Source of the DNA: Dyella terrae
Lineage (GTDB): Bacteria; Pseudomonadota; Gammaproteobacteria; Xanthomonadales; Rhodanobacteraceae
Length of the DNA: 64,000 nucleotides
Assembly (NCBI RefSeq): GCF_022394535.1
Contig: NZ_CP089414.1
Span: 1-64,000, forward strand
Direction of reading: 5' to 3'
The notes beneath the pieces are model-generated. The model was not told where the DNA came from and made no database searches. It saw only the letters and a program-made list of their open reading frames with translations. This document shows positions 36,246 through 44,605 of this stretch, in pieces; position 1 is the first letter of the stretch; every line of letters starts with the position of its first letter. The position numbers were made by a program, and so were the translations under genes.

Positions 36246-36700
36246 AGAGGCAGGAGCAACGCAACCTGCCGCGACGCGATGTGCGGCGAAGCTGCACGAG
36301 CCGTCGGCTCGTCGCTTTTGACCGTCGGGCCCCCTGTGCGGCGGTGAGGGGTGGACGAAAAGGCCCGCAGGGGGGATCGGTATGGATGCCGATTCCTTTT
36401 CGCCAGGGCAGGAAGCCCTGTCGAAAAGCCCGGCCGTCCCTCACGAACTGGCCGGCTTCACCGGCCAGCGCCAAGTGGGGGTGCCCTTTCTTCGGGTTAC
36501 TTTTCTTGGGCAAGCAAAGAAAAGTGACTCGGCCTCCGGTAGGAGGTCGAAAGCCCGCCGCAGGTGAGCCAGGTCGCGGCAAAGCGACAACCAAGCCACA
36601 TCGCTACTGGATCCCGGCCTGCGCCGGGATGACGATACAAACGGTGAGGTTAGATTGACCCCTCACCCCAACCCTCTCCCCAAAGGGGCGAGGGAGCAAG
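36246..36700 (+). repeat. Composite structured element, copy B
   Basis: About 450 bases with clear similarity to 44083-44605 over most of the length. Hairpins in order: GTGCGGC-GAA-GCTGCAC (36281-36297); CCCCTGTG pairing with CGCAGGGG (from about 36330 to 36375); TTTTCG.CAGGGC / GCCCTG.CGAAAA (36397-36427); CTGGCCGG / CCGGCCAG; GTTACTTTTCTT / AAGAAAAGTGAC (36496-36528); ATCCCGGC / GCCGGGAT; and the terminal CTCTCCCC repeat. Frames of 70-125 codons pass through it, but they match only other copies of the element and I do not regard them as genes. Confidence 0.8.
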
Positions 36701-36742
36701 AACTAAGGCGCTATTGCGCCTCCACCAACGGCTCCGCCACCT

Positions 36743-37732
36743 TCAACGGCACCTGCCTCTCCCGCCAATGCGGCACCCCCCGGCCACTGCGACGTCCCCG
36801 TGCCCCCCCGAAGTCAACGCGCGACTCACCGCACGCCGCTCCAGATGCGGCGCAAACACACTGATGAAATCCAGCGCATATTCACGCAACACGCTTTCCC
36901 GGCGCAGCACAATCCAAGTAGTGCAGGCGGCGAACAGGTTGTCGGCGCCGAGTTCGCGCAGATCGGTGTCGTGGTTGGGTTGATAGGCCATCTCGGCGAG
37001 CACGCCGATGCCAAGTCCTTCGCGTACGTAGGTCTTGATCAGGTCAGCGTCGCTAGCCGTCATCACGATCTGTGGGTCGAGCCCCGCACTCTGGAAAGCG
37101 CGGATGAGGGAAGACTCCGGTTTCAGTGAGGAGTCGTAGCTGATCAGTGGATGCGCCGCGAGCTGTTCCAGTGTCGGCGGTTGTTTCTGGCGCGCCAGTG
37201 GATGGTTCTTCGGCACCACCACCGTGCGGTTCCAGCGATAGGCGGGCAGGGCGATACCGTTGGGCGGCGGCGCGCCAGCGGCGGTGCTGACGATGGCCAG
37301 ATCCACCTGGCCGCTGTCGAGCAGCGATATCACGTCTGAATCGCTCACCGGCTGCAGGTGGACGCTTACTTGCGGGTAGCTGCGGCTGAGTGCCGCTACG
37401 GACGAAGGCAGCGCAAAGCGCGCCTGAGTGTGGGTGGTGGCGATACGCAGCGTGCCGCGCGATTCGTTGCGCAGGTTGGCGGCGATGGAGCGAATGTTGG
37501 CCGCCTCCGCCAGGATGATGCGCGCGCGTTCCAACACGTGGGTACCCGCATGCGTAATCGCGTGCAGGCTGCGTCCCTTGCGATGGAACAACTGGAAGCC
37601 AAGTTCGTCTTCGAGCTGGCGAAGCAGCTTGCTCAGGCCCGGCTGGGTGGCATGCACCCGCTCGGCTGCGAGGGTGATGTTCAGGCCGGCATCAGCGATG
37701 GCGACGAGGTAGCGAAGTTGCGTCAGCGTCAT
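36743..37732 (-). CDS. cysB: CysB-type LysR transcriptional regulator
   Basis: CysB activates sulfate-assimilation genes and responds to O-acetylserine/N-acetylserine and to sulfide. The 329-residue product has the N-terminal helix-turn-helix (LRYLVAIADAGLNITLAAERVHATQPGLSKLLRQLEDELG) and the CysB signature IATTHTQARFALP with the ligand-binding Thr residues. The conserved DADLIKTYVREGLGIGVLA follows in the effector domain. The start ATG at 37732 fits the family; a longer TTG-started frame upstream does not. The last 20 residues are Gly/Arg-rich and not conserved. It is divergent from cysG and lies between the two halves of the cys cluster. Confidence 0.92.
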   Translation of the reverse strand: MTLTQLRYLVAIADAGLNITLAAERVHATQPGLSKLLRQLEDELGFQLFHRKGRSLHAITHAGTHVLERARIILAEAANIRSIAANLRNESRGTLRIATTHTQARFALPSSVAALSRSYPQVSVHLQPVSDSDVISLLDSGQVDLAIVSTAAGAPPPNGIALPAYRWNRTVVVPKNHPLARQKQPPTLEQLAAHPLISYDSSLKPESSLIRAFQSAGLDPQIVMTASDADLIKTYVREGLGIGVLAEMAYQPNHDTDLRELGADNLFAACTTWIVLRRESVLREYALDFISVFAPHLERRAVSRALTSGGHGDVAVAGGCRIGGRGRCR

Positions 37733-37896
37733 TGTTCGGGTTCCACAGGCAATCGAGGGAGATGTGGCTCGGTGTCGCGCTGCGGATACATCGCGCAGGC
37801 CTGCACACCGGCGCCTTGCGTTTGCAGGCGGTCGGGGTGGTGTCCAGCAGGTGGCGATGAAAGTCCATGAAGTACCGTAACGGAGTGTTCTCAATT

Positions 37897-37912
37897 AGAC
37901 GTCTATACATCT
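37897..37912 (-). promoter_or_regulatory. Box shared with cysJ (AGATGTATAGACGTCT)
   Basis: This 16-base site in the 334-base cysB-cysG gap matches AGATGTATGGACGTCC before cysJ at 14 of 16 positions, in the same direction relative to cysB as the other is to cysJ. The right half, AGACGTCT, equals the consensus half-site of the MetJ repressor. The rest of the gap has TTATAACG near 37962, similar to the cysJ palindrome core, and no gene. Confidence 0.5.
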
Positions 37913-38066
37913 GTTGCTGCTATGCGTCAATACTTTGTGAGGCTAGCAACGGGTCTCGTCTTATAACGACCCGGCATATCGGGCCACCCAGAAATCATTT
38001 GTACAGCCGGTTCAGCCTGCCTAGCGTGGATGGTCAACTGCCCCATCTCACGGAGCCCGAGGCTGG

Positions 38067-42552: not shown

Positions 42553-42559
42553 GTGTGGA

Positions 42560-43927
42560 TCAGATGTCCTTGGCCAACGGCTCGGCCAGGCCGATGTAAC
42601 CGCCCGGCGTCAGGTCGAGCAGGCGCTGTTTGGCGTCGGCCGGAAGGTCCAGGCCGGTGATGAAGGTGCGCATGGAATCCTTGGTGATGCCCTGGCCACG
42701 CGTAAGTGCCTTGAGCTGCTCATACGGTTCCGGCAGGCCGTAGCGGCGCATCACTGTCTGCACGGCTTCTGCCAGCACTTCCCAGCTGTTGTCGAGGTCG
42801 TCGGCAAGGCGATCGGCGTTGACCGTGAGTTTGCCCAAGCCCTTCTTCAGCGATTCCAGCGCCACCATCGTGTGGCCGAACGCAGTGCCCAACGCGCGCA
42901 GCACGGTGGAGTCGGTCAGGTCGCGCTGCCAGCGGCTGATCGGCAGCTTTTCCGCGAAATGGCCGAGCAGGGCGTTGGCGAGGCCGAAGTTGCCTTCGGC
43001 ATTTTCGAAGTCGATCGGGTTGACCTTGTGCGGCATCGTCGAGGAGCCCACTTCGCCGGCCTTCAGCGACTGCTTGAAGTAACCCAGCGAGATGTAACCC
43101 CAGATGTCGCGGGCCAGATCGATCAGGATGATGTTGGCGCGACGCACCACATCGCAGTACTCGGCCACGCCATCATGCGGTTCGATCTGAGTGGTGTACG
43201 CGTTGTAATCCAGGCCCAGACTTTCCACGAAGCGCTGGGAAAAACCGCGCCAGTCCAGCTCCGGGTAGGTGATGGCGTGCGCGTTGTAGTTGCCCACCGC
43301 GCCGTTGATCTTGCCGGGAATTTCCACCGCCGAGAGCTGCTTGCGCTGGCGCTCCAAGCGAGCCACTACGTTAGCCAGTTCCTTGCCCAGCGTGCTCGGC
43401 GAAGCCGTCTGGCCATGCGTGCGCGAGAGCATCGGCAGGCCGGCGTTGGCGTGCGCGAGCTCGCGCAGCTTGGCGATGATGCCGTCGATGGCCGGCAGTA
43501 GCACCTGGTCACGCGCGTCGCGCAGCATCAATGCGTAGGACAGGTTGTTGATGTCTTCGCTGGTGCAGGCGAAGTGCACGAACTCCTTGGCCTGCGCCAG
43601 CGAGGTATCGTTGCCGATGCGTTCCTTGATGAAGTACTCCACCGCTTTCACGTCGTGATTGGTGGTCGCCTCGATGGTCTTGATGCGCGCGCCGTCGTCC
43701 ACGCTGAAATCCACCGAGATGCCCTTGAGCTTCGCCACCTGATCCGCAGTGAACGGCGGCAGCTCGGCGATGCCATTGTCCGCACCCAGCGCCAGCAGCC
43801 ACTCGATCTCCACGTGCACGCGGCGGTGCATGAGTCCGAACTCGCTGAAGATCGGGCGCAGCGTTTCGACCTTGCTGGCGTAACGGCCGTCCAGCGGCGA
43901 CAGGGCGGTCAGGGCATGGGAGGACAT
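42560..43927 (-). CDS. purB: Adenylosuccinate lyase
   Basis: PurB acts twice in purine synthesis: it cleaves SAICAR to AICAR and adenylosuccinate to AMP, releasing fumarate each time. The 455-residue product is of the enterobacterial type: [20 protein letters not shown] at the start, [32 protein letters not shown], and the superfamily signature [19 protein letters not shown] with the catalytic Ser loop. It stands alone. The hflD and mnmA genes that flank it in some relatives are absent. The fumarase gene that recycles its by-product lies 760 bases away, which may be chance. Confidence 0.97.
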
Positions 43928-44049
43928 TCGGGGTGTTCCGGAGGCGGGAAAGGGGAGATTTTACAACAGGGGCGGGGAGGGGCGGATTCGGGTTTTTTGC
44001 GGGGGCGCTTCCGCCTTGTCTCCCTTGTGCGGCATGGGTGGCCGGGACT

Positions 44050-44080
44050 CTCACTCCTTCTCCTCATTGAGGAGAGGGTT
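44050..44080. repeat. Degenerate CTCTCC-type hairpin
   Basis: CTCACTCCTTCTCCTCA / TGAGGAGAGGG is a variant of the short repeat seen at 35764, 40544 and 44566. It marks the left edge of composite element C. The 120 bases between the purB start and this point hold no gene or obvious site. Confidence 0.5.
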
Positions 44081-44082
44081 TG

Positions 44083-44605
44083 CGGGAGCAACCCGACCTG
44101 TTGCGATGCGATGTGTAGCGGAGCTACACGAGCCGTCTGCTTTCGCTTTTGATCTTCAGGTCCCCTGTGCGGCGGTGAGGGGTGGACGACAAGGCCCGCA
44201 GGGGAGTCGGCAAGGATGCCGATTCCTTTTCGCCGGGGCAGGAGCCCCGTCGAAAAGCCCGGACACCCCTCACGGACTGGCCGTCTTCACCGGCCAGCGC
44301 CAACCGGGGTGCCCTTTCTTTGGGTTACTTTTCTTTACTCCGGGCATCCTGCCCTCCGCCCTTCGGGCCGGCTTCGCCGTTCGCACGCGCTCCTGCGCGT
44401 GCGTGGGCATGCAAAGAAAAGTGACTCGGCCTCCGGTAGGAGGTCGAAACGCCCGCCGCGTGGGCGGCCAGGTCGACGAAACGCGACAACCGAGCGCTAC
44501 CGCTACTGGATCCCTGCCTTCGCAGGGATGACGGCTAAAGATGAAACAGTGAGGCGAGCACCCACCCCTCACCCCAACCCTCTCCCCGGAGGGGATAGGG
44601 AGCAA
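44083..44605 (+). repeat. Composite structured element, copy C
   Basis: Second long copy of the element at 36246-36700. Hairpins: GTGTAGC-GGA-GCTACAC (44113-44129); TCCCCTGTG with CGCAGGGGA (44161-44205); TTTTCG.CGGGGC / GCCCCG.CGAAAA (44227-44256); CTGGCCG / CGGCCAG; GTTACTTTTCTT / AAGAAAAGTGAC (arms 44324-44335 and 44414-44425) whose loop is 78 bases long; ATCCCTGC / GCAGGGAT; and a terminal CTCTCCCC repeat. The 78-base loop has its own perfect hairpin, GCACGCGC / GCGCGTGC. It fills the purB-fumC gap. Confidence 0.8.

Follow-up and report, generated by a model that had tools for sequence, protein, structure and literature searches.

What is a hairpin-rich sequence that recurs between the genes of a bacterial genome, and does it fold as RNA or as DNA? 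The question is raised by an intergenic element of Dyella terrae (GCF_022394535.1), whose genome of 5.36 Mb is a single contig, NZ_CP089414.1. We analyzed positions 1-64,000 of this contig, here called the window, and give coordinates as window positions. An earlier note on this DNA had described two long related copies, each drawable as a chain of hairpins with paired changes in three stems, and had proposed a structured RNA or structured DNA element spread through the genome. We found that the core of the element is an arm of ~230 nt with a shared, covarying fold, whose inner hairpins, as judged from their sequence, end in tips that match the docking site of CsrA/RsmA, described as a global post-transcriptional regulator of gammaproteobacteria (PMC7652899). 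We consider it fairly likely that the arm is a folded RNA with CsrA/RsmA-type sites, present in dispersed copies, often as head-to-head pairs, that would titrate CsrA, probably as a sponge, or mark transcripts.

A shared fold supported by covariation

We aligned 60 sequences with MAFFT (alignment A1), comprising 59 of 61 chosen representatives and window copy 1; the representatives L121:1945-2165 and L095:2048-2268 and copy 2 are not part of it. These sequences share a 230-nt fold of 60 pairs (stems P1 to P7 in Table 1), with changes on both sides at 43 pairs; of 3588 cells, 97.4% are canonical. Shuffling, repeated 500 times, never matched any of five fold measures, and slid partners reached only 41-48%. 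In P2, whose sides lie ~80-100 nt apart, double changes occur at all 10 pairs. Covariation, suspected in the earlier note from two copies, extends over many. A home-made, R-scape-like test was applied to 156 copies, the remainder of 164 after removal of eight near-identical or short ones. It combined a G-test with average product correction and 40 nulls in which substitutions were re-dealt over the tree, and returned 13 pairs with E<0.05, twelve of which were at least 96% canonical and the thirteenth 75%.

The three stems singled out previously fared differently. Stem 3 is P4, and one of its pairs (A-U in 40, C-G in 11 and G-C in 8 of 60 copies) is among the strongest covarying ones, with E=0 against a tree-based null; the C-G pair closing the P4 loop is invariant (60/60). 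Stem 1 shows exactly the differences described and is a genus-level hairpin, with each pair formed in 89-94% of 98-99 copies and one pair being A-T in 70 and C-G in 13. Stem 2 did not hold as a conserved helix: it can pair in both window copies, but its variable pair is formed in only 40% of the 60 and its inner pairs hardly vary. Its run of C instead pairs with the GGG at 36478-36480 in nearly all copies (57-60 of 60). On both grounds we rejected it. Paired changes in conserved stems were thus retained for two of the three.

For the copy 1 arm, the minimum free energy (MFE) is -126.8 kcal/mol, with z scores of -5.55 for the plus and -3.81 for the minus strand, and the single-sequence MFE structure is largely the same as the shared fold; the copy 2 arm has a z score of -5.23. 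The better folding strand is the plus strand. G-U cells exceed A-C cells (172 versus 31, and 80 versus 30 leaving out pairs whose most frequent type is G-U), an excess that points to folding of the plus strand, as RNA or as single-stranded DNA (ssDNA). Between the two, which had been left side by side before, the CsrA-type loops described below tilt the balance towards RNA, with ssDNA also compatible.

A protein-coding origin was rejected: arm lengths modulo 3 divide into 21, 22 and 22, and any given frame is open in 7 of 65 copies at most, in agreement with the earlier view that these are not decayed genes. The same note had named simple palindromic modules shuffling independently as an explanation that would undo its reading. 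It is valid for the outer modules at 36606-36700, since these also occur alone; the 230-nt core, in contrast, is a single nested fold.

Within the core, we observed that a segment upstream of P6 (window 36480-36528) covaries with the P6 5' strand, as if the two were rivals for one 3' strand. The columns concerned are 177-180, 191-194 and 205-210 of a 260-column alignment, in which 180:210 and 191:210 are each 99-100% canonical with E above 0.05. A two-state switch in the P6 region is possible.

Hairpin tips of the CsrA type

A feature that the earlier note had not noticed lies at the hairpin tips. The P3 tip reads C-A-N-GGA-X-G and the P4 tip C-A-(N)-GGA-(X)-G, with N and X variable, and the other loop letters are nearly invariant (n=60; A57, G58, G60 and A60 in P3; A60, G59, G59 and A57 in P4). 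P5 carries a GGA tip in only about two thirds of these copies. Searching for a strict form of the tip, C-A[N]GGA[X]-G on a stem of at least 5 bp, we detected at least one CsrA-type hairpin in 59 and at least two in 54 of the 60 copies, compared with 0/60 on the opposite strand and a mean of 0.012 per copy in shuffles. The 50 full arms of the D. terrae genome (full-core matches, from a total of 65 arms) all contained at least one such hairpin and 49 at least two (mean 1.98), while masked DNA of the same genome yielded 27 matches in 935,454 bases on both strands, or 0.01 per 230 nt. In Escherichia coli K-12 CsrB, the tips CAGGATG, CAGGACG and CAGGAAG occur, and the same pattern finds three hairpins with stems of at least 5 bp and eight with at least 4 bp. 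As described for RsmE structures, the recognized form is A(N)GGAX on a stem closed by C-G, with N and X looped out and variable, and loops without N were bound more weakly (PMC4005645). Invariant A and GGA with variable N and X are what the RsmE structures, as far as that account goes, predict.

Could these features have accumulated in functionless repeats, whose complementarity is maintained by template switching in palindromes and by gene conversion among copies? Some copies are indeed closer to paralogues from the same genome than to the orthologous copy (those of G000 and G019, and not G001 and G006 at the second of the two window sites; identities of 1.00 were discounted for G001_L100 and G012_L112, which overlap the orthologous sites), so conversion or re-insertion occurs. 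Because this holds for only some copies, homogenization is partial. Neutral drift of this kind would, however, have to produce the double changes across the long-range P2 and the one-strand G-U excess, and would have to keep loops invariant where neutral loops ought to vary; we regard it as very improbable.

Distribution and relation to TwoAYGGAY

An exact 37-base piece of the core is present in Dyella silvatica and Dyella sp. ASV24, and all 20 searched genomes of the genus carry the element. Of the 147 genomes sampled from the bacterial family, 113 gave matches, and these represent 23 of 26 genera; among the matches listed, those outside the genus are mostly narrowed to the core. The search of relatives by covariance model that had been suggested was run with a model, R1, built from the 60 copies and, under stricter filters than the family search, gave matches in 89 of 369 genomes and 73 of 272 genera of the class.

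In five of 20 distant loci, six arms inside or overlapping R1 matches passed the gathering score of Rfam family RF01731, TwoAYGGAY, which belongs to the same Rfam clan as CsrB (CL00106); 20 further sources, 16 of them loci from a family designated f108, gave no RF01731 match. As in TwoAYGGAY, two adjacent A(N)GGA-tipped hairpins (P3 and P4) sit inside a closing stem, P2. Rfam models matched nine times over 35700-36760, with E values of 2.2-8.7 and all under gathering scores. Since the RF01731 gathering score is not reached, the window copies are not filed as members of that family; they are tied to it through intermediates.

A phage origin was rejected, with no match of the arm in phages. Plasmid matches of the window arm comprise the P6 hairpin region only, in three records. 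P6-like hairpins were also seen in Aeromonas (whole model, 83 bits), Pseudoalteromonas and Ilyobacter records (L232, L233 and L234).

CsrA and the f108 family

CsrA was identified in all 20 genomes of the genus. At class level, we examined 45 of the 88 element-bearing genomes other than G000 and 35 genomes without a listed match, and found CsrA in 43 and 29, respectively. The two element bearers lacking CsrA, G261 and G378, both belong to f108 and were the only two f108 members tested. This family is probably Burkholderiaceae, an assignment made because two of its arms have their best plasmid matches in Comamonas and Variovorax. The element occurs in 11 of 20 f108 genomes. CsrA-type tips are absent from all 21 f108 copies and present in 31 of 42 other class copies (Fisher test, 6e-9), a comparison that kept distinct rows of at least 180 nt (21 of 42 f108 rows and 42 of 49 others).

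The inner domain of such copies is of another kind. By eye, a hairpin with the flanks TTTGAG...CGAGTT, or closely similar ones, is present there in several copies of f108 and also in copies of G325, G433 and G391. Loci from f108 and some other families with this hairpin in place of the GGA hairpins (L270, L274, L261, L257 and L264) gave no Rfam match.

Copy number, arrangement and gene context

The D. terrae genome contains at least 62 matches, with 40 of 151 candidates scored, and the stretches of it that were fetched contain 85 sites when solo end modules are counted. The core motif GCAAAGAAAAGTGACTCG occurs 80 times at up to two mismatches and the end module CCCTCACCCCAACCCTCTCCCC 101 times, with no occurrence of either control (reversed pattern for the core motif). 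Because 85 sites and 80 core-motif matches stand against none in the control, the repeat is not due to chance. Together with covariation far above shuffled and slid controls, these sites bear out the proposal of a structured element spread through the genome.

From the outside in, elements consist of the end modules M1 and M2, the arm and a spacer. Arm pairs less than 700 bp apart are divergent in all 26 cases in the genome (28 of 28 before we set aside two with negative spacings, -36 and -35, which probably represent one arm matched on both strands) and in 49 of 49 cases at the examined loci of relatives in the same family. Outside the family, this rule is broken at least by convergent arms in G319, and some genomes, such as G279, have same-direction arms near each other. 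Single arms number 53 in the relatives. A tree of the arms has two deep groups, which are also visible in the alignment.

Of the 85 sites, one falls inside a called gene. For 61 elements longer than 300 bp, a gene was called on each side, and the flanking genes are convergent in 27, tandem in 30 and divergent in four cases. Among 305 neighboring gene pairs of the same stretches, with the element-flanking pairs included and home-made gene calls throughout, these numbers are 62, 211 and 32, giving a convergent excess with p=2e-4. Gene 3' ends are faced by 84 of 122 flanks, at a median distance of 67.5 bp. Such a placement would suit a hairpin chain that ends or protects transcripts between convergent genes, that is, a terminator or insulator. 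Copy 1, however, shows no clear excess of terminators (three found versus 1.7 expected), and a terminator requires neither the nested multi-branch fold nor invariant GGA tips; we therefore judge this explanation to be quite unlikely.

Along the chromosome, no copy is listed in the 1.07 Mb between 44 kb and 1.11 Mb (P=0.00015 for 64 randomly placed elements, using a hand-made site list). The window has a positive GC skew, whereas the skew at 1.11 Mb is negative, and because of this difference in sign the stretch probably spans the terminus.

History and mobility

At the copy 1 orthologous site, arm sequence is present in nine of 18 further genomes of the genus, those in which a match was obtained, and at the copy 2 site in ten of 18, one of them weak and at a contig end. 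Without an arm, the first intergenic gap is 56-244 bp in eight of nine genomes and 505 bp in G007; the second is 131-156 bp in four of eight and 366-444 bp, with other sequence, in the other four. Inspection by eye revealed end modules but no arm at both G007 sites, which look like internal deletion derivatives. At L215 of G007, upstream of fumC, only two M1 end modules were seen.

These patterns are relevant to the main rival of the RNA interpretation, according to which the element is mobile DNA resembling miniature inverted-repeat transposable elements (MITEs), with arms that fold as ssDNA for transposition, in the manner of repetitive extragenic palindromes (REPs) with their REP-associated tyrosine transposases (RAYTs) or IS200/IS605 ends, and with GGA tips contacting another protein. 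High copy number, divergent arm pairs, inverted end modules (M1/M2 at both outer ends of 17 paired elements and of others), occupied and unoccupied orthologous sites and the end-module remnants in G007 all fit it. On the other hand, the 17 paired elements show no consistent target-site duplication, and a search restricted to the Y1 (RAYT) family, PF01797, found no such transposase in the D. terrae genome (5 of 14 control genomes matched), on which ground we also rejected REP/RAYT identity. Occupation of both window sites in several other species shows these insertions to be old. A purely ssDNA role moreover leaves the CsrB-identical tips, and the lack of such tips in f108 copies, unexplained. 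We consider it unlikely as the explanation of the arm; it is compatible with a CsrA-binding RNA, and both can be true. Dispersal of the element was probably non-autonomous.

A proposed mechanism and points against it

If the arm acts as a CsrA-binding RNA, it would be transcribed mostly by read-through, as a 3' tail of neighboring genes. At elements that retain both arms, one sense arm would be produced whichever side transcription comes from. Each arm RNA would then display two hairpins, or three in many relatives, tipped C-A(N)GGA(X)-G, to which CsrA may bind. Many copies could jointly titrate the protein, as CsrB and RsmZ do; alternatively, CsrA would act on the arm-carrying transcripts, with the arms marking them. 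A broader version, in which the class-wide repeat family is a distributed CsrA sponge with about a hundred sites per genome in gene tails, homogenized, and tipless in lineages lacking CsrA, is put forward more tentatively, as a possibility that we would not yet back over its negation.

Several observations weigh against this proposal. Many arms are single (33 in the D. terrae genome versus 28 paired entries), so the argument from either-side transcription leaves some copies uncovered. Relative to tandem genes, arm orientation shows no preference (7 same, 11 opposite), and a consensus scan for one promoter type, sigma-70-like, found none in the copy 1 element. The class matches of R1 lean towards GGA-bearing copies, the kind on which the model was trained. 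RF01731 fails in 15 of the 20 distant loci, gives no match in the window at its gathering score (43 bits; the same holds for the other Rfam families at theirs) and, for copy 1 over 35700-36760, no match at E up to 10. Co-occurrence of element and CsrA is not significant in the 45 versus 35 class genomes (p=0.13). CsrA was tested in two f108 members only, and two of the 21 f108 copies, both from G261, come from a tested member. Lastly, four of 15 CsrA-positive class genomes have tipless copies (G360, G235, G391 and G325, the last with a weak CsrA match).

Working CsrA sites on a many-copy repeat would mean that titration of a regulator is spread genome-wide, and would provide TwoAYGGAY with a function. 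With a distributed sponge, CsrA activity would depend in part on how many copies of a mobile element there are and on their transcription, beyond dedicated small RNA (sRNA) genes. Comparison by itself can put the idea to the test, since the loops are of another type in f108, where both members examined for CsrA lack it.

The two copies in the window

Both copies described in the earlier note are real and related, with segment-wise identities of 82-98%. Their limits were revised: what had been taken as copy 1 is just the right-hand portion of a longer form, and copy 2 starts further to the left (Table 1). Copy 1 begins 15 bp past the stop of the gene at 33979-35745; its neighbors encode a bifunctional ATP sulfurylase/APS kinase and a LysR regulator. 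Copy 2 lies between the genes for adenylosuccinate lyase and a class II fumarase, and its enlarged P6 loop contains hairpins of its own. Separate from the element, a different pair of 61-nt repeats, 82% identical, is located at 5539-5599 and 23828-23888.

Table 1 Features of the element copies in the window.
Feature	Position	Strand	Details
Copy 1, full long form	35761..36700		Left end modules, truncated left arm, spacer, right arm, right end modules
Copy 1, left inverted part	35761..36027	-	M1/M2 and left-arm remnant (P6/P7 side only); 66% identity to right arm positions 238-454; R1 43.1 bits at 35928-36204 (minus)
Copy 1, spacer	36028..36325		Separates the divergent arms; contains the genus-level stem 1 hairpin
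Copy 1, stem 1 hairpin	36278..36302	+	
Copy 1, core arm (structured, RNA-like)	36325..36556	+	R1 230.1 bits, E 2.8e-67 (arm is one of the 60 rows behind R1)
P1	36331..36480	+	Outer closing stem, 36331-36333:36478-36480 and 36340-36343:36469-36472
P2	36344..36444	+	Long-range stem, 36344-36353 with 36435-36444
P3	36372..36397	+	Hairpin, loop 36382-36387 ATGGAT (ANGGAX hexaloop)
P4	36401..36423	+	Hairpin (stem 3 of the earlier note), loop 36410-36414 AGGAA
P5	36448..36468	+	Hairpin; many relatives have a third GGA-type loop here, copy 1 does not
P6	36496..36528	+	Hairpin, GGTTACTTTTC...AAAGAAAAGTGAC; module also matching plasmids of other genera
P7	36529..36550	+	Hairpin on the outer side of the arm
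M2	36609..36634	+	End module, GGATCCCGGC...GCCGGGATGACG palindrome; also occurs without the arm
M1	36660..36700	+	End module, CCCTCACCCCAACCCTCTCCCC hairpin; right boundary sharp in most copies
Solo M1 and M2	40544..40645	-	Armless end modules
Copy 2	44051..44605	+	Short left end, one arm, M2, M1; left limit (~44051) read from the sequence
Copy 2, stem 1 hairpin	44110..44134		
Copy 2, core arm	44159..44454	+	R1 198.7 bits, E 6.6e-58
Copy 2, P3	44204..44225		Hairpin, loop AAGGAT
Copy 2, P4	44232..44252		Hairpin, loop AGGA
Copy 2, enlarged P6 loop	44337..44412	+	76 nt, versus 8 in the model
Copy 2, end modules	44508..44605	+	M2 44508-44533, M1 44566-44605

Comparison with known systems

In the open-access literature, as far as our searches of it reached, we found no description of this repeat or of a dispersed CsrA-binding repeat, which is weak evidence of absence. 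TwoAYGGAY was presented in 2010 as a probable RNA of the human gut, gammaproteobacteria and Clostridiales (PMC2864571) and proposed in 2014 to bind CsrA (PMC4333381), and two covarying pairs were added to it in Rfam 15 (PMC11701678). The element shares its neighboring pair of A(N)GGA(Y) hairpins within a closing stem. It differs from TwoAYGGAY, as outlined in these sources, by a long-range stem of 10 pairs, by P5-P7, by occurring in dozens of copies in one genome and by the head-to-head arrangement of its arms.

CsrB/RsmB, CsrC and RsmX/Y/Z each have an sRNA gene of their own, complete with promoter and terminator. The GGA tips of the element are letter-identical to those of E. coli CsrB, whereas the element itself recurs in many dispersed copies and has two or three sites in each arm. 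RsmU of Xanthomonas (sRX061) is reported as an RsmA-sequestering RNA with GGA motifs that originates from an mRNA 3' untranslated region (PMC7694677). Going by its description there, it differs in being confined to Xanthomonas, having no Rfam homologue and not being presented as a dispersed repeat (PMC7694677).

Palindromic modules, inverted pairs, intergenic sites and high copy number are shared with REPs, bacterial interspersed mosaic elements (BIMEs), REP doublets forming hairpins (REPINs) and MITEs. The solo M1 pairs resemble REPINs. Besides the missing Y1 transposase and consistent target duplication, what sets the element apart from REPs and MITEs is its 230-nt nested fold with long-range covariation.

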